A stretch of 60,261 nt of DNA from a virus. This document shows, one piece after another, positions 1-53,077 of the stretch (position 1 is the stretch's first letter; each line of letters opens with the position of its first letter). Under the pieces are notes generated by a model that did no database searches, was not told the DNA's origin, and saw only the letters and a program-made list of their open reading frames with translations. The translations under genes and the position numbers were made by a program. The DNA lies in the IMG/VR virus record IMGVR_UViG_3300032220_000952, positions 1 through 60,261 of that record, one strand, 5' to 3'.

Positions 1-826
1 AGTAGCGCTGAGAAATAAACCAAAAATAAATTCACCATTGTTATAACACCCCACAACTATATAATAACATTGTATAGTATATACTATATAGTAGTAGTAG
101 TATATAGAGAGACAGAGTAATCGTTTCTCTATATAGGATACATCATAACAATTTTTTATATTCCCCCCTCGCCGGGCCTTACATTGGTTACGATATGTTA
201 GGTATGATGTGTGATGTGTTAGCCCCAGCGCAAAATAATCGTGTGTTAGGAGCAATGAAATGAGTGTTATGGGAACGCTAAGGGGTGTTTTTTTGTTGTT
301 ATCATTTTTCCCCCAATATTTATGGAAGCTATATTTTCCGAAATTTGATACAGCTCTTCTAACTGATTTTTTGCTACACATTACCCTGTCATTATTGGGT
401 ATTTAGTACCATTCTCCACCCTATCATATCAGTCACATCCCCTATCCGGCTCTATTCCCATTTTTGATACCCCTTTTTTCTATCGGTTCTTTTAATGTTT
501 TTACCCTACCATATACTATAAAGTGGGGGAAAGTGGGGAATTGTGGGAAATTTCTCTATATTATACTTACTTTACCTAGCTATTTTACTTTCTTTTGGGT
601 GTTGTGGGTTAAGTGGGAATATTGTTAGTGTATTACTATAGTATATACTACTACTACTTGTCTTCTATATACTATTATTAGTATTACTATATAGTATTAT
701 TTTTTTTGTGTTTATTTCCCACTCATTCACTTCGTTCATTCGTTCGGTCCAGCGCATAAAAAAACCCCGATGGTTTATCGGGGTTCTCTCTCTCTCTTTA
801 TGATTTAATTATCACCATACTCATTT
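1..826. other. Non-coding, repeat-rich intergenic region
   Basis: No convincing gene is visible here on either strand. The region holds AT-only tracts, a hairpin (101-110 pairs with 126-135), a 14-base direct repeat (73-86 and 637-650), and a triplet-like GTA/TAC tract present as inverted copies at 90-106 and 642-658. Pyrimidine- and G-rich homopolymer stretches lie in between. A rho-independent terminator for the leftward genes sits at 763-785. Origin, packaging site or leader-RNA roles are possible, but nothing in the sequence decides between them. Confidence 0.7.
763..785 (-). terminator. Strong rho-independent terminator after the leftward gene array
   Basis: A perfect 9-bp stem (763-771 with 777-785) closes a 5-base loop. 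On the minus strand it is followed by a run of T residues (about 755-764). It lies about 40 bases beyond the stop of the last minus-strand gene, exactly where the leftward transcription unit should end. Confidence 0.9.
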
Positions 827-1534
827 TCAAGCATCATCATCCCTCACTATTTTAGTTCCATTCCAATCATCATATATTTCATATCCCCCACTTTTTATAA
901 CTGCTTTAAGAAATGGAATAATCTTTGTTAATTGATTGTCTGTTAAAGTTTCAAATTCGGGATGTTCTCCAAAAGTAAATTTATTACGCGGTTTTTTCTT
1001 TTGTTCGGGTGTATATCCTACCTTCTTAACGATACTTTCCATCTCATCATCTACTGCATCTGAATCTAAATCATATGAATCTAAAGTATTCACCATTTTT
1101 TCGTATAAATCCGAAGCCTCTTTTGCAAGTTTAGAATAAGACGGGGTAGGTTTTGGTGTTTGAGTGGGTTGACTAACAACCTTTGGTGCTTCTGGTTCTA
1201 CACTCCATATTGTATTAGTATTGGCGATATCTAATTTTGTGTTATCTGTAAAATCAACCGTAAATGAGTTGCTACCACTATTAAAGCGTTTTATTGTTTT
1301 TCCTTTATATGCAGTTGGATTAGATATTTTAGATTCATTACCAGTTATAAAAATTGTTGTTTTATCTGTAAAAACAACAGTATACCCATATTTGGATTTA
1401 TTATGTGTAAAGCTTTTTATTGTTTTTCCTTTAAGTTTATTTAAGTCACCCATAGGTCGGCGCATTTCCTTAGCTTCCACAATTACCTGTCTAACCTCTT
1501 CTCTGATTAGTTGTCTTAGTTGGTTTAGTTTCAT
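827..1534 (-). CDS. Putative head-packaged protein with capsid-targeting-like N-terminus and two internal repeats
   Basis: This 235-residue protein is of unknown function. Residues 1-20 form a charged amphipathic helix (MKLNQLRQLI then REEVRQVIVE) ending in I-V-E before Ala21. That matches the L/I-x-E cleavage rule of T4-type prohead proteases, and closely similar N-termini occur on the next genes. Residues about 35-63 and 77-103 are two related segments, each starting KGKTIK and containing an FTD motif followed by a beta-strand pattern, so they look like a duplicated small beta domain. A Pro/Thr/Gln-rich linker follows. It is the last gene before the terminator at 763-785. Packaging in the head is inferred. 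Confidence 0.7.
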   Translation of the reverse strand: MKLNQLRQLIREEVRQVIVEAKEMRRPMGDLNKLKGKTIKSFTHNKSKYGYTVVFTDKTTIFITGNESKISNPTAYKGKTIKRFNSGSNSFTVDFTDNTKLDIANTNTIWSVEPEAPKVVSQPTQTPKPTPSYSKLAKEASDLYEKMVNTLDSYDLDSDAVDDEMESIVKKVGYTPEQKKKPRNKFTFGEHPEFETLTDNQLTKIIPFLKAVIKSGGYEIYDDWNGTKIVRDDDA

Positions 1535-1565
1535 TGTTTGTTTCCTCTTTAGTGTTATTTAATAA

Positions 1566-2321
1566 TCAATTTTTAAGGGCATCTTTCACAATGAAATACT
1601 CATCATTTTTTAAATTATCTGAAAGAACACTTATAAAATCTGGCAAGTTTAGATTTGATTTTTTATATTTATCGGTAAAATATAGGGTAAGTTCCGTAAT
1701 TGTTGGTGCGAGTTTAAAATTAGAATCACCATACTTTGAATATGTTTTTCCTGGCTCGTCATACTTACGACTATCAGGTTCAAGTTTTTTCATATACCCG
1801 GTATCGTAACCACTTACTAAAGGATTGTTATTTGCACTACTACTAGTTTTCAATTTACGATAATATACATCTCGTGCCTCTAACGCTAACGAATAATTAG
1901 AAATTCCGGCATCACGAGCGGCTGTAAATGAAATATCTCTAATTGCATCTTGATATTTTGCAATATTAAAGTCTTTTATGGAGGTTAAGGTGATTTTTAT
2001 ACCATTATCACCACCAGATTTTATAATTTGTACTTTTGCACCGGGCAGTTTTTTCTTAACTTCAATCTCAACACTCTTAATATCATTATTAGTCGCATTA
2101 GCAATAACCACATCATATTTAGATTTTAATGAAAGAAGCTCTTCTTTAAATGGTTCTGTTTCTTTTTTATATTTATCCATTAAATTTTTTGATACTTCGG
2201 CAAATTTCTTCCCAGCGGTTATAATTTCTTTTTTTAAAATATTCGCATCGGTTGTGGATGATTCATTTAAAGCCTTTTTAGCTTCCTCTCTGATTAGTTG
2301 TCTTAACTCTGATAGTTTCAT
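1566..2321 (-). CDS. Putative head-packaged protein with capsid-targeting-like N-terminus
   Basis: This 251-residue protein is not recognised as a named family. It starts MKLSELRQLIREEAKKALNE, nearly the same helix as its neighbours, with L-N-E then Ser21 as a likely prohead-protease site. After that comes a Lys/Glu-rich, probably coiled-coil stretch (about 28-70), then a mixed alpha/beta region. A TATTTATA box lies 28 bases upstream of the ATG (2349-2356), and an AAAGAGG ribosome-binding site is visible. Delivery in the virion is an inference from the shared N-terminus. Confidence 0.65.
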   Translation of the reverse strand: MKLSELRQLIREEAKKALNESSTTDANILKKEIITAGKKFAEVSKNLMDKYKKETEPFKEELLSLKSKYDVVIANATNNDIKSVEIEVKKKLPGAKVQIIKSGGDNGIKITLTSIKDFNIAKYQDAIRDISFTAARDAGISNYSLALEARDVYYRKLKTSSSANNNPLVSGYDTGYMKKLEPDSRKYDEPGKTYSKYGDSNFKLAPTITELTLYFTDKYKKSNLNLPDFISVLSDNLKNDEYFIVKDALKN

Positions 2322-2363
2322 TATTTGATTCCTCTTTGATTTATATTATATAAATATTGTTCT

Positions 2364-2690
2364 TTAAGCTAATACATCTTCAAATGGGTACTTATCCAAA
2401 AGCCCCTTTTCCTTACACCACTTCTTCCATTCGGATGTCTTAAATAACTTTTCTGTCAATTTATCCCATTCATCATTAATTTTGTGCATAGAGGGTCGTG
2501 ACCAAAGTTGGTCCATACTTCTGGAGTTGTATAACATTTGTCTAGCACGACTTTCAATAAAGTATAACCTCTCCACATCCTTTATGAACTTAGGTGAGTA
2601 GTTGGCTTTATCAGAAGCGGATATAGTAACTTCGTTTATTACCGTTACAATCTCATCCCTAATCATCTGTCTTAACTCTGATAGTTTCAT
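2364..2690 (-). CDS. Small putative head-packaged protein
   Basis: The ATG at 2690 is chosen because the in-frame codon two positions upstream is only TTG. The 108-residue product begins MKLSELRQMIRDEIVTVINE, the same 20-residue helix and L/I-x-E ending as the preceding and following genes. The remainder is basic and helical, rich in Trp and Lys (W-K-K-W near the C-terminus), with no recognised domain. Its start lies a few bases after the stop of the Ntn-hydrolase-like gene, so the two are probably co-translated. Confidence 0.65.
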   Translation of the reverse strand: MKLSELRQMIRDEIVTVINEVTISASDKANYSPKFIKDVERLYFIESRARQMLYNSRSMDQLWSRPSMHKINDEWDKLTEKLFKTSEWKKWCKEKGLLDKYPFEDVLA

Positions 2691-2696
2691 ATACAA

Positions 2697-3509
2697 TTAT
2701 ACCTTAACAATTTCTATTTTTATTTTTGGTTCATATCCGGCAGGTAATTTAGTTTTTATACCCCCAAAATGTTGGACCTTATCTGAAAAATATGTAAACT
2801 GAAATACCCTATCAGTTAAATTCATCACCACCTGCGATGATGTAAACATCTTTTCAGTATCTCTCTTCATATTCAACATCGGTTTTGTTGGGAAAAACTC
2901 TTTACGCATCGCTGCCGCAATCTCCCTCCAGTCATCAACACCATCAACTTGCTTTTCTGCCGTTATTTTCCGTATTTTTGAGGATAAGTATTTTTCACCT
3001 TCGGTATAACCCGCATCAGTAAATACATGCCCATGATTTGTTCTTACTATCGGAGATTCAATGTTTCTTAATTTCACCTCAGGCTTATGCTTTGATGTAG
3101 TTTCAATACTTACCATATATTTTGGGGATGAAATAAAAGTATGCCCCTTTAAAGCCAATTTACTCTTACCTCGATATGTAAGAGCAGACCGGATAGCATC
3201 AATTAGTTTAGGTTGCTTTATTATATTTCTGATTTTATTCCCATCAGGACCAGGCTTTCCACCCTTTTTAATAATTTTATGCTCACTTTCATCCCGACCA
3301 ACCAAAAGAGCGGAGTTTACAACACCAATTCCAAACTCATTCATACCTTCACTCCAATCGGTTGTCAAATCGTATAAATATACTACCTCAACACCATCAA
3401 ATAATGTATGGATAATCTCTAATTTGGGTTTATACGCTCTATCCCTATTTTTTGCGAGTATAAACTTATCGCCAACTTCTTTGGAAACAATTATACACTC
3501 CTTAATCAT
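2697..3509 (-). CDS. Ntn-hydrolase-like protein
   Basis: This 270-residue protein resembles N-terminal-nucleophile hydrolases of the acyltransferase/TANGO2-like group. It has an early Cys (residue 5), an NRDR motif near residue 18, and an N-E-F-G-I-G-V-V-N-S segment like the family's GxNExGLxVxxN element. A G-H-V-F/N-H-G motif lies mid-protein. If Cys5 were the nucleophile, the first four residues would have to be removed. It is the only gene of the 0.8-5.7 kb cluster without the capsid-targeting-like N-terminus. The substrate is unknown, and the family call is tentative. Confidence 0.5.
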   Translation of the reverse strand: MIKECIIVSKEVGDKFILAKNRDRAYKPKLEIIHTLFDGVEVVYLYDLTTDWSEGMNEFGIGVVNSALLVGRDESEHKIIKKGGKPGPDGNKIRNIIKQPKLIDAIRSALTYRGKSKLALKGHTFISSPKYMVSIETTSKHKPEVKLRNIESPIVRTNHGHVFTDAGYTEGEKYLSSKIRKITAEKQVDGVDDWREIAAAMRKEFFPTKPMLNMKRDTEKMFTSSQVVMNLTDRVFQFTYFSDKVQHFGGIKTKLPAGYEPKIKIEIVKV

Positions 3510-3523
3510 TGGTTGCTTAGTTT

Positions 3524-4396
3524 TTAGTATCTACTAACTTTGGCCATAAACTTAGCCCACTTATCAGGCTCAAATTGGTCCTTCATCTTAACTATTAGAT
3601 TTGCTGCAGGAACTTTTAATGCGTTACTTGTCAATGATGATTTAACAACATAAGAACTACCTTCTTTTCTGTATATAGGTAAAACATCCTTAACATAGAT
3701 AGGTTCTTTTTCTAATGAATCCAAATCTTTTACCAGTCCGCTCTTTTTTACTAATGCAGCTCCAATAAAGTTTTCAGTAGATTCTTTGATTACCGATTCA
3801 TTCACCCCTTCAAGTAACCCAATTGCAATTTCTCTATCGTTATTATAAGTACCTTCTAATATCTTTACACGTACGATGTCTTTTTTGGCAATACTATCTC
3901 CGTTAAAAACTAAATCATTATACATTTTACCAACAGAACCTTTAATTCCTTTTTTGGACTTTGTATCGATTGATAATACTTTATTAGTTCTGCTAAAATA
4001 ATCTAACATATCGTAATCAAGATCTTTAGCATCTACTGTTTCGCCAGGACCTGGAAAGTTTTTAGTAGATTCTTTGATTACCGATTCATTCACCCCTTCA
4101 AGTAACCCAATTGCAATGTTGTTTACTTCTCTTTCTGCACCAGCTGCGTATTTCTTATTTACGATTGCGATTTTGTTACCCGATACTTTAACAGTATACA
4201 TAGGTATCATACTCGTTGAAAAGTCATACTTAATTCCAGCTTTTTTTAATTCAGCACCCACATTCATAAATGAACTTGCGTTTTTAACTGCTGCTTCTAT
4301 CTTATCTAAATCAGCATCGTATTTACCTTCAGTTAGTGATTTTGTAATATTTTTAATCTCTTCTCTGATTAGTTGTTTTAGTTGTTGTGGTTTCAT
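3524..4396 (-). CDS. Putative head-packaged protein with duplicated L-L-E-G segment
   Basis: This 290-residue protein of unknown function begins MKPQQLKQLIREEIKNITKS and then L-T-E before Gly24, a prohead-protease-like site. An identical stretch containing IAIGLLEGVNESVIKEST occurs twice, encoded by a perfect 54-bp direct repeat; each copy contains another L-L-E/G match to the protease rule. The rest is beta-rich, with several K-V-S-G type turns. A TATTTATA box lies 20 bases before the ATG (4416-4423), with a CGGAG-type ribosome site between. Confidence 0.7.
   Translation of the reverse strand: MKPQQLKQLIREEIKNITKSLTEGKYDADLDKIEAAVKNASSFMNVGAELKKAGIKYDFSTSMIPMYTVKVSGNKIAIVNKKYAAGAEREVNNIAIGLLEGVNESVIKESTKNFPGPGETVDAKDLDYDMLDYFSRTNKVLSIDTKSKKGIKGSVGKMYNDLVFNGDSIAKKDIVRVKILEGTYNNDREIAIGLLEGVNESVIKESTENFIGAALVKKSGLVKDLDSLEKEPIYVKDVLPIYRKEGSSYVVKSSLTSNALKVPAANLIVKMKDQFEPDKWAKFMAKVSRY
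3776..3829. repeat. 54-bp perfect direct repeat, copy 1
   Basis: This copy is identical to 4064-4117, 288 bases (96 codons) away within the same gene. Recombination between the copies would remove or add exactly 96 codons without breaking the frame. It encodes most of the segment around IAIGLLEGVNESVIKEST. Confidence 0.95.
4064..4117. repeat. 54-bp perfect direct repeat, copy 2
   Basis: This is the second copy of the in-frame repeat at 3776-3829, with no mismatch over 54 bases. Such identity at DNA level, not only protein level, points to a recent duplication or gene conversion. Confidence 0.95.
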
Positions 4397-25704: not shown

Positions 25705-27946
<2,242 letters not shown>

Positions 27947-30259: not shown

Positions 30260-30277
30260 ATCTTTTATTTATTTTAG

Positions 30278-30360
30278 TAGTCAGGACAGGATTCGAACCT
30301 GTATTAGGGCTTACGACCTATGATACTCTATTTACTACAACGCCATGTAGCCACCTGACT
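30278..30360 (-). tRNA. tRNA-like RNA 1 (anticodon not assignable)
   Basis: On the minus strand a perfect 7-bp acceptor stem (AGTCAGG with CCTGACT), a discriminator A, a T-arm ACAGG-TTCGAAT-CCTGT and a D-arm (GCTAC/GTAGT around an 8-base loop containing GG) are clear. The middle (31 bases) does not fold as a standard 5-bp/7-base anticodon arm; the best fit is TAGG/CCTA with an 8-base loop. The CCA end is not encoded. It could be a divergent tRNA, a tRNA with an unusual anticodon arm, or a non-decoding tRNA mimic. Confidence 0.55.
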
Positions 30361-30366
30361 ATTTGT

Positions 30367-30594: not shown

Positions 30595-30716
30595 TAGTCA
30601 GTACAGGATTCGAACCTGCGGAGAACGGCTTGATAGTTTCTGCGCGAGGGCTACTTAATTCGCCACCCCTCAATCTTTGTTCTCAATTACGCTGCGGATA
30701 CCACCGCCACCTGACT
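30595..30716 (-). ncRNA. tRNA-like RNA 2, 122 bases, expanded central arm
   Basis: The ends share the acceptor (AGTCAG with CTGACT; seventh pair mismatched) and the T-arm CAGG-TTCGAAT-CCTG with tRNA-like RNA 1. A short D-like hairpin follows (GCGG-TGGTAT-CCGC). The rest is not an anticodon arm: a 6-bp stem GAGAAC/GTTCTC encloses about 53 bases, including a GAGGG/CCCTC hairpin. It is 40 bases longer than a tRNA and far shorter than tmRNA. It may be a regulatory or degraded tRNA relative. Confidence 0.5.
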
Positions 30717-30810
30717 GTGTTGAGGATGAGAAGTCCTCTGTGTTGTAAGTGTTTTCATAATTACTTCTAATTATCTACATTCCTTTCTCAAGGGAACAAC
30801 ACAATGTTGA

Positions 30811-41723: not shown

Positions 41724-43625
41724 TTAGAATTTAAATATTTTGTAAACTTTTTGCTTTTCGTTAGTGGTTAATCTTACAAAGTAAAAACCTGTCTTTAAAT
41801 CACTAACATTGATTTTTTTCGTAACTACTTCATTTTGATTTACGAACTCTTTTTCTGAGTAAAAGTTTTTACCCATATAATCGTAGATTTCGTATGTTAA
41901 ATATCCCCAATTGGTTTGGAAATAATCTATGTTTAAGTTGTCTTGAACTGGATTTGGATATATTCTAAACCCATTTACTAATTCGTTTACAAGTTCTCTT
42001 GCTCTTCTACCATTAACCACAGTCGCATCTACAGGTGAAGGGATGATATTCAAATCTTCTGCTTTTTCATTTCCCGCTGCTTTGTTGGTTATTTTAATAG
42101 GTGATTGTTCCCAGTTTTGATTTAAGATTTCAAATTGGAAATTAAACATTTGAGTTGGGTTGGTGATAAGTGATGGAGACATTTTAGATTCGTGTCCACC
42201 CCAAGTTATCTCACCAGGTTTTGCTGAAATGAATGCGTTCCAAGCACTTGCTTCAGGCCCTACATTAACATTTGTAAACCTAAAAATGGTTGGGTCATAC
42301 TTTAAAGATAATTGTGCTGCACCTACTTTGTTTCCATGTGTGATAAAGGTAACAGCAACATTTACTGAATTATCATCTGAAATAGTTAATTTAGGTATTC
42401 TAAATTGGACTGAATCTTCAATGTTTTGATAGATTGTTCCTTCATCCAATACATAAGATGTTCCGCTTGTTGGGTTGTTTACTCTTTGAATTTGGAATGA
42501 TAAGTTGTTTAATCCAGTATTTGTTACATCCCCTAAAACATACCCTCTATAACTTAAGGAACTTAATCCATTCAATGGAACATCAATGTTAGTTGTACCT
42601 ATGATATTGGTTTGGAATACATCTGGGTTAGCCATAATCGTAGCGTATTCTCCTGCGGTATAGTACCTAACATTGTATTCATTTGCTACTACAGGAGACC
42701 AAGTAGTTCTACCCGTTGCTAAACGATTAAATATTAAATAAGCATCGGATACGGATAATGTGTTATTGCGGTTTACATCACCTTGTTGGAACTCGTATGC
42801 TTGGGCAGTATCAGCGTAAATACTCATATCGGATAATCTATAAGCATCGGTAATGTTGATAGCTGAATTATCAGATAGGGTATCTAAATTTGATACTAAC
42901 TTAACATTGTAGAAAGATGTATCGTATGGGATTTTAATTCCTGCTAAACCAGCAGCGTCTGTTACAAATCTTTCACCACGACTATAAGTTTGTGTGGTTT
43001 TCAGTTTGTAATCAAATGCGAATGGCATATCCGGCGCAGGTGTTCCATCTACATTTAATAAGGTTACGGGGAACACCAAAGTATCCATTTGGAATCTACC
43101 TCCGTAGCTGTAAACACCTAAAGCGTTATCAACACCAGCGGTTGTGGTTGCTATGTTTGTGTAGGCAGGGGTAGATTGAACTTCTAATGAATCAACGGAA
43201 GAAGGATTGAACCCAACTGCGTGTGGGAGTAAAACTTCAAATACAGCACCATCAGGCCAATCAAATACTGCTGATGTCCCAGTATAGATTGCCGTTGCGT
43301 TTACCCAACCAGGTTGACTATAGTAAGAACCATACTTTGTATTAATTCCAGTTGCGGTTGGTCCCCATTTTACAATAGGTTGTTTGAACGATGTGGTGGG
43401 GTAGAAAAATCTAACCTGAAAACCAGCGTAGTTTGTAGCAGTTGGATTGTGATAGTGTAAATATACTACAGTAGTGTCCTCTAATACACTACCCAATGTA
43501 AACACCGTATCAATCAAAAAGTGTGGTGAGTTTGAGTTTGGCGATACTAATACTTCCGTTCTTCCGTTTTGAGCAAATACTCCAAATGGTAAAAGTAACG
43601 CAAATAATAAAATAAGTTTTTTCAT
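41724..43625 (-). CDS. T9SS-secreted protein with dockerin-like repeats and cohesin-like domain
   Basis: This 633-residue exported protein begins M-K-K-L-I-L-L-F-A-L-L-L-P-F-G-V-F-A-Q (signal peptide). Two dockerin-like repeats lie at 252-269 and 282-305 (S-A-I-N-I-T-D-A-Y, then R-N-N-T-L-S-V-S-D-A-Y), and a cohesin-like domain at about 410-505 (V-G-A-A-Q-L-S-L-K-Y-D-P, then G-E-I-T-W-G-G). The end (about 555-633) has F-R-I-Y-P-N-P-V, then L-K-T-G-F-Y-F-V-R-L, the type A sorting domain of the type IX secretion system. The host T9SS would export and may anchor it. Confidence 0.85.
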   Translation of the reverse strand: MKKLILLFALLLPFGVFAQNGRTEVLVSPNSNSPHFLIDTVFTLGSVLEDTTVVYLHYHNPTATNYAGFQVRFFYPTTSFKQPIVKWGPTATGINTKYGSYYSQPGWVNATAIYTGTSAVFDWPDGAVFEVLLPHAVGFNPSSVDSLEVQSTPAYTNIATTTAGVDNALGVYSYGGRFQMDTLVFPVTLLNVDGTPAPDMPFAFDYKLKTTQTYSRGERFVTDAAGLAGIKIPYDTSFYNVKLVSNLDTLSDNSAINITDAYRLSDMSIYADTAQAYEFQQGDVNRNNTLSVSDAYLIFNRLATGRTTWSPVVANEYNVRYYTAGEYATIMANPDVFQTNIIGTTNIDVPLNGLSSLSYRGYVLGDVTNTGLNNLSFQIQRVNNPTSGTSYVLDEGTIYQNIEDSVQFRIPKLTISDDNSVNVAVTFITHGNKVGAAQLSLKYDPTIFRFTNVNVGPEASAWNAFISAKPGEITWGGHESKMSPSLITNPTQMFNFQFEILNQNWEQSPIKITNKAAGNEKAEDLNIIPSPVDATVVNGRRARELVNELVNGFRIYPNPVQDNLNIDYFQTNWGYLTYEIYDYMGKNFYSEKEFVNQNEVVTKKINVSDLKTGFYFVRLTTNEKQKVYKIFKF

Positions 43626-51116: not shown

Positions 51117-51794
51117 TTAAAAAACTTTTTTTAATTTGCTTATATTCATTGTAATGTTATTTGGCGCATTAATTGGTGCGTTGATGGGTTTTGTATCAAA
51201 TTCTTTTTTTGTAAGACTATGCCAAGTTTTTATTTCAGTACCTACATTATAAATACCAAAACAATTTTTATAAATTAACTTTATAATTAACTCTGATATT
51301 TTATTTACATAATCACCATTTGTAAATTGATTATCCCATGCGTTTTTATATGGAAATGGGTATGGTTTATGAGATGTTCTAACTATTAAATAGTTTTTAC
51401 ATTTTAATTGTATGTGGGCATCACCAAGTAATTTTGTGTAACCATACCAGGTTTCTAAATGAACAGGAACATCTTCCTCTGATGCTTCTGTTTTAGAATT
51501 TGCATAAATATAATCAGTAGATATATGAGCAAGTTTTTTTCCTGTCTCGTTACAAAAATTTACTAATGTATCAACAAACTCATAATTTACTTTCCAATGC
51601 AATTCTTTATTATTTGAATATGTGTCTGTATTTGCTATGCAATTAATGATAACGTCATATTCAGAAAGTTTAAACATCCATTGGTTAAAGTCAAAAATAT
51701 CTATTCCATCTTTTTTTCTTGAAATATAATCCCAATTAGTTTGTTTAACCAATTCAGAACCTAATAAACCATCACCAAGAATTACTATTTTCAT
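51117..51794 (-). CDS. RmlD-like NAD(P)-dependent sugar reductase
   Basis: This 225-residue short-chain dehydrogenase-like enzyme has V-I-L-G-D-G-L-L-G-S-E-L (G-x-x-G-x-x-G variant), I-S-T-D-Y-I-Y-A near 93 and Y-G-Y-T-K-L-L-G near 117 (Y-x-x-x-K active pair). It resembles dTDP-4-dehydrorhamnose reductase but is shorter. It likely completes a deoxy-sugar path. It overlaps the 3-dehydrase gene as ATGA (51791-51794). Confidence 0.8.
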   Translation of the reverse strand: MKIVILGDGLLGSELVKQTNWDYISRKKDGIDIFDFNQWMFKLSEYDVIINCIANTDTYSNNKELHWKVNYEFVDTLVNFCNETGKKLAHISTDYIYANSKTEASEEDVPVHLETWYGYTKLLGDAHIQLKCKNYLIVRTSHKPYPFPYKNAWDNQFTNGDYVNKISELIIKLIYKNCFGIYNVGTEIKTWHSLTKKEFDTKPINAPINAPNNITMNISKLKKVF

Positions 51795-53077
51795 TTAAAA
51801 TTTTTTACAACGGATTCAATATATTCAAAAACTACATCAGTATAGTGTGGTGCGGCCCCAATAAAAAATACTTTATCTAAAACTTTATTAGCTTCAGGAT
51901 AGTTTGATGAATTGTCTAAAAATGAATATCCCGGATGTAACAAAATATTACCTGCAAAATAATTTCTCGTCTGAATTTTATTTTTTTCCAAATGTTCAAC
52001 TAATTTATGCTTTAACCCTTCTTCTTCACAAACAAATGGAGTACCAAACCAACTTACATCCGCTTTATCCAAAGATTTAATACCCCTAATTCCTTTTATA
52101 TTTGAGGTAAAAATATTCTCAATTGTTTCTTTTGATTTTTTTCTATTAGTTTCAATCTCATCAAATTTATCCAATTGAACAGAACCTATAGCCCCCTGTA
52201 AATCCAATGGTTTTAAATTATAGCCCATATTTGAAAAAACATATTTATGGTCTATTATACCATCATATGAATCTAACCAATTATTAAATCTTTTACCACA
52301 AGTACCACAACTTAACAAATTAGCTGAACCCACGCAGTAGCAATCTCTACCCCACCATGCTATACTTGTTAATAATTTTTTTAATTCTTCTTCATTAGTC
52401 CCAATCAACCCACCTTCTCCAGTAGAAATATGGTGTGCTGGGTAGAATGAATTTGAGTATGCTATATAATACTCATTTAAATATTTGCCACCCCATTTTG
52501 AACCCAAACTATCACAGTTATCTCCAATTAGTTTTAAATTGTATTTTTCACAAATTTCAATAAGTTTATCAAAATCTGGCGGATTGCCTAAAACGGGGGA
52601 AACAAATATTGCTTTAGTTTTATTTGTTATTTTTGATTCTATTTGATTTAAATCAAAATTCAAAGTATCCCATTCAATATCTACAAATACAGGCTTAAGT
52701 CTATTTTGATATAAAACAGATATTGTTGTGGCAAAACCAACAGGTGAAACAATAACTTCATCATCATCTTCCCAACCAAAATATTTTTTTAAAGCGGTTA
52801 TCATTACTAAATTTGCAGAGCTACCTGAGTTTACCATTTGGTTGAATTTTGAATTAAATTTTTTACCAAATTTTCTTTCAAATTTCCAAACTTCTTCTCC
52901 AGCAGTAATCCATTTACCATTTAAAAATGTATTAACAGCAGCTTCTATTTCTTTATTATCCCAATATGGGCCTGAGTAGTAAATGGGTGTAGTTCCCGCT
53001 TTGAATTCTTTAGAATTGTATATGTAGGGGGCTACATGATTTCCAATTAAAGATTTAATTTCATTTTGTAAAATCAT
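51791..53077 (-). CDS. rfbH: RfbH-type sugar 3-dehydrase (PMP and [2Fe-2S] dependent)
   Basis: This 428-residue DegT/DnrJ/EryC1-family protein has the cofactor-binding S-N-S-F-Y-P-A-H-H-I-S-T-G-E-G-G. His215 replaces the usual Lys, as in E1/RfbH-type CDP-4-keto-6-deoxyglucose 3-dehydrases. Four cysteines (246, 248, 257, 260) in W-G-R-D-C-Y-C and S-C-G-T-C match the E1 [2Fe-2S] cluster. Such enzymes remove the C3 hydroxyl to make 3,6-dideoxyhexoses. The required reductase partner was not seen. Confidence 0.85.
   Translation of the reverse strand: MILQNEIKSLIGNHVAPYIYNSKEFKAGTTPIYYSGPYWDNKEIEAAVNTFLNGKWITAGEEVWKFERKFGKKFNSKFNQMVNSGSSANLVMITALKKYFGWEDDDEVIVSPVGFATTISVLYQNRLKPVFVDIEWDTLNFDLNQIESKITNKTKAIFVSPVLGNPPDFDKLIEICEKYNLKLIGDNCDSLGSKWGGKYLNEYYIAYSNSFYPAHHISTGEGGLIGTNEEELKKLLTSIAWWGRDCYCVGSANLLSCGTCGKRFNNWLDSYDGIIDHKYVFSNMGYNLKPLDLQGAIGSVQLDKFDEIETNRKKSKETIENIFTSNIKGIRGIKSLDKADVSWFGTPFVCEEEGLKHKLVEHLEKNKIQTRNYFAGNILLHPGYSFLDNSSNYPEANKVLDKVFFIGAAPHYTDVVFEYIESVVKNFK

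Follow-up and report, generated by a model that had tools for sequence, protein, structure and literature searches.

What is an RNA with the ends of a tRNA, and with no arm to carry an anticodon, doing in the genome of a virus? The question is raised by positions 30,278 to 30,360 of a viral DNA of 60,261 nucleotides (nt), positions 1 to 60,261 of the IMG/VR record IMGVR_UViG_3300032220_000952, the whole of which will be called the window. A reading of the letters alone (the sequence-only reading) had noted there a 7-bp acceptor, a D-arm and a T-arm with no standard anticodon arm between them, and had proposed a frameshift-type tRNA with an expanded loop, an unusual tRNA for the host's code, or a decoy for tRNA enzymes. 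The element belongs to a large and apparently undescribed family of virus-encoded RNAs in which the ends of a tRNA are kept and the decoding part is replaced by folded inserts. I found no description of such a family in the open-licence text of PMC, a body of literature that takes in few subscription papers or bioRxiv-only preprints.

Two tRNA-like RNAs in the window

The RNA lies on the minus strand (30278..30360, A1 to A73, 83 nt; copy 1 from here on) and reads, 5' to 3', U(-1)-AGUCAGG-UG-GCUAC-AUGGCGUU-GUAGU-linker-UAGG-UCGUAAGC-CCUA-AU-ACAGG-UUCGAAU-CCUGU-CCUGACU-A-C. The three arms described earlier are there. The acceptor strands, AGUCAGG (30354..30360, preceded by U-1 at 30361) and CCUGACU (30277..30285 together with the discriminator A73 and an encoded C74, the full CCA not being encoded), correspond to AGTCAGG/CCTGACT in the DNA and pair at seven of seven positions, or at eight if U-1:A73 is counted. 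The T-arm ACAGG-UUCGAAU-CCUGU (30286..30302) is perfect, and the D-arm (30334..30351) has the stem GCUAC/GUAGU, made of CUAC/GUAG plus one G.U, and the loop AUGGCGUU, with its GG. The centre, too, folds at best as had been claimed. In place of the expected anticodon arm is a conserved and unpaired linker of 13-14 nt, AAAUAGAGUAUCA (30321..30333), and at the site where a long variable arm would sit is a hairpin, UAGG-UCGUAAGC-CCUA (30305..30320), invariant in the sub-family. A 5-bp anticodon stem with a 7-nt loop is absent; this hairpin beside the T-arm, with its 8-nt loop, is the best alternative. The predicted fold of the whole RNA has an energy of -25.6 kcal/mol (z = -2.5 relative to shuffles).

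The lack of a standard anticodon arm was upheld by programs built to find one. ARAGORN finds no tRNAs in the whole window at default settings, and when its threshold is lowered to 80% it forces upon copy 1 a poor "Ser/Leu" fold with mismatches. A scan of the window with the Rfam models gave no family at its gathering score (29 bits for the tRNA family, RF00005), and at E ≤ 10 the surroundings of copy 1 gave no tRNA match, only two sub-threshold matches at the level of chance; a covariance-model match revealing a normal anticodon arm was looked for with these models and none was found. An intron in the anticodon loop was considered and rejected: ARAGORN with introns allowed returned nothing at default stringency, and relaxed runs gave implausible folds only.

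About 15 viral contigs have the same core within the same ends, and the flanks around it are of at least seven unrelated kinds. In these relatives the CUAC/GUAG of the D-stem covaries with CGAC/GUCG, a compensatory change of U-A to G-C, and 99.2% of the cells of the alignment are paired. The recurrence of the core within its ends, together with the compensatory change, argues that the fold of copy 1 is not due to chance.

Upstream of copy 1, on the same strand, lies a 122-nt sibling that the sequence-only reading did not mention (copy 2, 30595..30716, minus strand). It has the same ends around an unrelated 70-nt core that contains GAGAAC...GUUCUC and GAGGG...CCCUC. The innermost pair of its acceptor, at G7, is a mismatch, and a near-identical contig, L075, has CCTGACT there. 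Both copies have the 5' end AGTCAGGTGGC, the 3' end CAGGTTCGAATCCTGTCCTGACTAC and a length within the 69 to about 230 nt by which the family was defined; both also have an encoded C74 and U or C at position -1 (U in copy 1, C in copy 2). L075, the sole available relative of the window for a comparison at this locus, holds the same two cores, and neither copy has a DNA match among GenBank phages.

Constant ends and exchanged cores

Across the family, constant ends derived from tRNA-Leu (acceptor, D-arm, T-arm and elbow) surround an exchangeable, folded core that replaces the anticodon and variable arms. I collected at least 670 copies, comprising 561 unique sequences, from 342 loci in hundreds of viral contigs. 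When IMG/VR was scanned for both ends, at least 119 contigs were found, a scan for the 3' end gave likewise a lower bound, and two narrower but complete scans added 41 and 59 contigs, mostly new. The ends are nearly constant, AGTCAGGTGGC ... ACAGGTTCGAATCCTGTCCTGACTAC, the pairs of the acceptor and T-arm are near-perfect over hundreds of copies, and the core between them is hypervariable: the collected copies fall into 362 core clusters, 260 of them singletons (Good's coverage 0.54, Chao1 about 945). Copies are intergenic (7 of 229 lie inside an open reading frame, or ORF, of at least 100 amino acids), almost always on the strand of their neighbours (222 against 22 on the opposite strand), and may be packed as densely as 13 in 14 kb, amid ordinary tRNAs in near-complete sets. 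No gene family accompanies them, the widest ORF cluster being present in 28 of about 200 loci.

The family may also be approached through structure alone, by a search for a T-arm and complementary acceptor strands that is free of bias toward particular end sequences. This search found 294 copies with the acceptor AGTCAGG. ARAGORN left 217 of these uncalled but called nearly all tRNAs on other frequent acceptors; AGTCAGG is the one big acceptor class that the program misses. Some other members of the family score 30-48 bits with RF00005, i.e., above gathering.

Between related phages, one entire core is replaced by another at the same locus, and the same core is found at unrelated loci and in unrelated phages. 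Two copies were considered a syntenic pair if their 400-bp flanks match on both sides, and their cores unrelated if their identity is below 0.7. Where flank identity is 85-97%, cores are unrelated in 94 of 109 pairs, and amongst all pairs with flanks below 99.5% only one of 130 has a core identity of 0.7-0.95. Ordinary tRNAs of the same contigs, taken as a control, behave otherwise: in the 85-97% band 1 pair of 53 is unrelated, and intermediates are many. Counting by locus, unrelated alleles (two to seven of them) are found at 10 of 27 independent scaffold loci, compared to 4 of 41 tRNA loci, all four of the latter with flanks below 88% and moderate divergence of the core. Between the copies at L006 and L016, identity is 98.7% in one flank and 100% in the other, and a rare GACGAC 3' end is common to both; their cores are wholly different. 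Alleles of the largest locus cease to align within the D-arm and align again from the T-stem onward. Some loci hold one copy where others hold two.

In the 32 clusters with at least three members, a double compensatory change is present at 36 of 462 predicted core pairs, with non-pairing cells amounting to 34 in total; a single helix of one cluster appears as GGGUAC/GUACUC, GGGUAU/AUACUC, GAUAAC/GUUAUC and GAACAC/GUGUUC. Folding relative to shuffles averages z = -0.69 for cores and -0.17 for random genomic pieces. The core of L057, carried there by AGTTAGG/CCTGACT, recurs in the complete 60.9-kb phage genome MW202828 on AGTGCAG/CTGCACT, changed on both strands, and the core of L037, otherwise on AGTCAGG, recurs in L078 on the acceptor GACCGGG. 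Core and acceptor therefore vary independently. In view of the compensatory changes, the folding and the recurrence on different flanks and acceptors, I think that the cores are functional RNA.

The ends have the marks of tRNA genes. U is found at position -1, where RNase P prefers it, in 80% of scaffold copies and 67% of normal tRNAs in the same contigs, as against a base frequency of 32%, and the 5' leader ahead of it is A-rich in both. C74 is encoded in 309 of 311 scaffold copies and in all 293 normal tRNAs of the same contigs, the full CCA in just 8 and 21, respectively. The D-arm GTGGCGGAATTGGTAGACGC matches that of the normal tRNA-Leu of the same phages, and the bases of the elbow (GG in the D-loop, UUCGAAU in the T-loop) are conserved. 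With leader, C74 and a tRNA-Leu-type D-arm in common with tRNAs, the copies should be processed as tRNAs; leader, C74 and elbow suggest that tRNA-processing enzymes recognize the scaffold. At one multi-allele locus a promoter element of the Bacteroidota type, TATATTTG, ends four bases ahead of the RNA, and so transcription there should start near the 5' end of the RNA. In the wider collection, TANNTTTG lies upstream of 27 of 338 copies, compared to 1-5 in control windows, and ends 4 nt upstream in 13 copies. As a separate matter, the constancy of C74 in ordinary phage tRNA genes that so seldom encode CCA may reflect 3'-end processing in these hosts.

Accounts of the scaffold and its cores

The account I find fairly probable is that each copy is a small RNA excised and matured at its ends by tRNA enzymes, that the core is its working part, and that recombination in the constant ends trades one core for another. 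The RNA would likely be transcribed from its own promoter or within a longer mRNA, and host RNase P, judging from the leader, would cut after U-1. The 3' end would then be trimmed and completed to CCA, as in the phage's real tRNAs, leaving a stable small RNA that bears the core, and homologous recombination within the constant ends is the likely means by which cores would be swapped. Since cores are replaced at one locus while the flanks hardly change, the working part would appear to face changing opponents, either host defence or other phages. It is a more tentative proposal, which I would not yet call probable, that the core acts as an effector made of RNA, be it an aptamer, a decoy or an inhibitor, directed against host defence factors or rival phages. 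Such a role would explain the several copies per phage, the hundreds of core types and the wholesale replacement of alleles.

Several considerations weigh against this account. Contigs were selected by exact end sequences, which inflates the conservation of the ends, a bias that is partly controlled. A single locus of 15 members supplies many of the syntenic pairs, although the counts by locus do not lean on it. True empty sites were not seen, the apparent ones being one-copy loci set beside two-copy loci. No motif is common to all cores, nothing being shared beyond remnants of the D-arm. Finally, recognition by enzymes, addition of CCA and charging are all deduced from sequence.

The main rival account holds that only the shell matters, as a decoy or stopper for host proteins that bind or cut tRNAs, the core being filler carried along by recombination. 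It is akin to the decoy of the sequence-only reading, which of its three proposals comes nearest: leader, C74 and elbow do suggest recognition by enzymes, but the variation and exchange of cores go unexplained by a plain decoy. Conserved ends, the lack of a shared core motif and folding that is on average just modestly above that of shuffles all suit a shell that acts alone, and defence systems that cut tRNAs exist, Septu being an example, described as acting on tRNA-Tyr (PMC13096335). Filler, however, should drift to intermediate identities, which are nearly absent, and should not persist as single cores that acquire compensatory changes in unrelated phages, on different acceptor stems. I consider this account unlikely. 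To about the same degree I doubt that the RNAs are guides, in each of which a stable tRNA frame would present an antisense core for pairing with mRNAs of the host or of rival phages. The hypervariability and exchange of cores would fit, as would the conservation in the sub-family of the 13-nt linker and similar single-stranded stretches; but amongst phage sequences, the only ones compared, the complementarity of cores to their own loci or to other phage loci does not exceed that of shuffled cores, nor does that of either window core to the window, and what is conserved in cores includes helices.

It is less likely again that the ends act as DNA, i.e., as sites of recombination or integration (integron-like, or terminal inverted repeats) that border a DNA cassette. 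AGTCAGG/CCTGACT is indeed a nearly invariant inverted repeat at the borders of exchange, and loci may hold one copy or two. Against this, acceptor stems changed on both sides still pair; tertiary tRNA positions, U-1 and C74 are retained, though a DNA site has no need of them; and neither empty sites nor a shared recombinase gene were seen in the collected loci. Very improbable is a functional but unusual tRNA, whether it suppresses frameshifts through an expanded loop or serves an altered code, as the sequence-only reading had suggested. The acceptor, D-arm and T-arm are tRNA-like, the ends are of the tRNA-Leu type, and ARAGORN assigns anticodons to some copies; but those anticodons are scattered (Cys, Ser, Pro, Ile, Tyr, Glu, etc.), most copies receive none, and both versions are contradicted by the hundreds of unrelated cores held by the same ends, which differ between close relatives at the same locus, and by the normal tRNA sets, near-complete in places, that adjoin copies in several carrier contigs. 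Least probable of all are decayed tRNA genes in a tRNA region, for the missing anticodon arm and the real tRNAs in most carrier contigs would fit, but decay would have struck the stems as well, and their near-perfect pairing, the retention of U-1 and C74, and the compensatory changes in the cores say otherwise.

Hosts, neighbouring RNAs and RNAs of similar build

The carriers point for the most part to Bacteroidota. On its minus strand the window encodes GroEL, an aminotransferase, several glycosyltransferases and a Por_Secre_tail/cohesin protein (25705-27312, 51791-53077 and 41724-43625), the Por_Secre_tail sorting domain being typical of Bacteroidota. The GroEL is 47% identical to that of Bacteroides phages, and Flavobacterium phage genes are also near, with records named Acinetobacter phage as the single best matches. 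Of six contigs from metagenome-assembled genomes that contain the 3' end, four are assigned to Bacteroidota (Sediminibacterium, Flavobacterium, Saprospiraceae and Chitinophagaceae). Carriers range from a podovirus-like genome of 61 kb to contigs of more than 250 kb, and so the family crosses phage groups. The isolated Bacteroidota jumbo phage Tenacibaculum phage pT24 (LC168164; L209 1533-1978) is annotated with a tRNA-Sup and two tRNA-Undet, between which lie unannotated tRNA-like pieces; it is a possible laboratory system for such RNAs.

Directly upstream of copy 2 is an RNA of a second hypervariable family (30722..30802, minus strand), GTGTTGTTCCCTTGAGAAAGGAA [core] CAACACAGAGGACTTCTCATCCTC, with complementary loops at its ends. 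The constant ends GTGTTGTTCCCTTGAGAAAGGAA and CAACACAGAGGACTTCTCATCCTC are found at many loci (e.g., L107, L114, L248), and the loops, TTGAGAA and TTCTCAA, can kiss, with one copy showing a matching double change (TTGATAA/TTATCA). The collected loci contain 62 two-ended copies in 37 core clusters, 34 of which copies directly precede a tRNA-scaffold RNA, and the 5' end alone is present in at least 119 contigs.

Other tRNA-like classes came to light in the same loci. One, of 145-176 nt (L072, L112, L127, L139, L148, L172; acceptor, e.g., TGTAAGG/CTTACA-G), has an anticodon-like hairpin with the loop GUC (Asp-like, discriminator G) and a giant variable arm with a conserved GGGTTGACCACAAAGCCGGC. 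In L021, L040 and L086 there are tRNA-like sequences of 77 nt that share the body TATCYCCTYATGCTTATACC..GTAGAAAGRGTAATTGGTTACAT and differ in their acceptor stems, the reverse of the main family. L114 is packed from 1 to 4300 with intergenic repeats that have paired ends and differing middles (e.g., ATGGTTACTG..CAGTAACCAT, GGTGTTA..TCAACACC, TATTGATAG..CTATCAAC), which suggests further families of RNA cassettes.

The nearest natural RNA I found, a claim of similar build and not of membership in the family since architecture alone was compared, is the species 1 RNA of phage T4 (rnaC; T4 AF158101 70908-71171 = L332 1409-1672, minus strand). It and species 2 (rnaD) are, as is predicted for the window's family, stable RNAs of a phage tRNA cluster with no function assigned; a 2022 omics study of T4 gives their function as unknown and species 1 as stable and late (PMC9697503). 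The ends of rnaC are tRNA-like, its 3' half closing with a perfect T-arm, CCGGG-UUCGAAU-CCCGG, and an acceptor-like strand; it lacks an anticodon arm and has an oversized folded core (z -4.6) with a hairpin beside the T-arm. It differs in the two U.U mismatches of its acceptor-like stem, in ends and core unlike the family's, in a host of another phylum, and in that many T4-like phages, in one search, gave no sign of many unrelated cores or of swapping. As for rnaD, it carries GGUUCCCUGAGUAAGGAAU, which resembles the 5' end of the second window family, and it resembles that family too in having GGTTCCCTGAGTAAGGAAT and, further on, a GATGCCCTCTTACATC hairpin.

In transfer-messenger RNA (tmRNA, ssrA), tRNA-like ends likewise flank an insert that is not tRNA. 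Its third acceptor pair, however, is the G-U used for alanine (G3-U70), whereas that of copy 1 is U-A; ARAGORN's tmRNA search was empty, Rfam gave no tmRNA match at gathering, and no conserved tag frame turned up, none having been searched for. The TMERs of murine gammaherpesvirus 68 (MHV68) join a viral tRNA-like RNA (vtRNA) to microRNA hairpins (PMC6315926), and so a virus again uses a tRNA-like RNA, in several copies per genome, to carry other RNA structures, but the cargo lies downstream of the vtRNA rather than inside it, in an animal virus that relies on an RNA polymerase III and Dicer pathway. Bacillus cereus tRNA-Other is also a pseudo-tRNA with a role outside of translation (PMC3399842), but it comes from a single bacterial gene, retains a Trp anticodon, forms part of a larger RNA and shows no exchange of cores. 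Of the same design is the recombinant "tRNA scaffold" of Ponchon and Dardel, in which an insert replaces the anticodon stem-loop, the acceptor stem, T-arm and D-arm are kept around it, and the enzymes of E. coli treat the fusion as a tRNA (PMC3753655). That scaffold is man-made; the phage family would be natural, with hundreds of inserts and natural exchange.

On the best reading, the family is a cassette of RNA effectors, exchangeable and built on a tRNA scaffold, that phages of Bacteroidota would use in host-phage or phage-phage conflict, and the wholesale swapping of cores at the same genomic position is what one would expect of an RNA-based arms race. Polymorphic protein cassettes (toxins, receptor-binding tips, anti-restriction genes) are familiar; a counterpart composed of small structured RNAs is not known to me. 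It is conceivable, though I advance it only tentatively, that these phages possess a polymorphic RNA-effector system, a pool of about a thousand cores shuffled under diversifying selection and acting as inhibitors or decoys against host defences or rivals, with the T4 species 1 and 2 RNAs as single, fixed members of the same kind. As matters stand, tRNA finders miss a common class of phage RNA or mislabel it with scattered anticodons. If the proposal is true, there would be a testable idea for the two T4 RNAs and several hundred new RNA domains, many presumably with protein targets; phages would also possess a natural equivalent of the tRNA scaffold used in laboratories, a uniform and stable frame within which functional RNA domains are traded.
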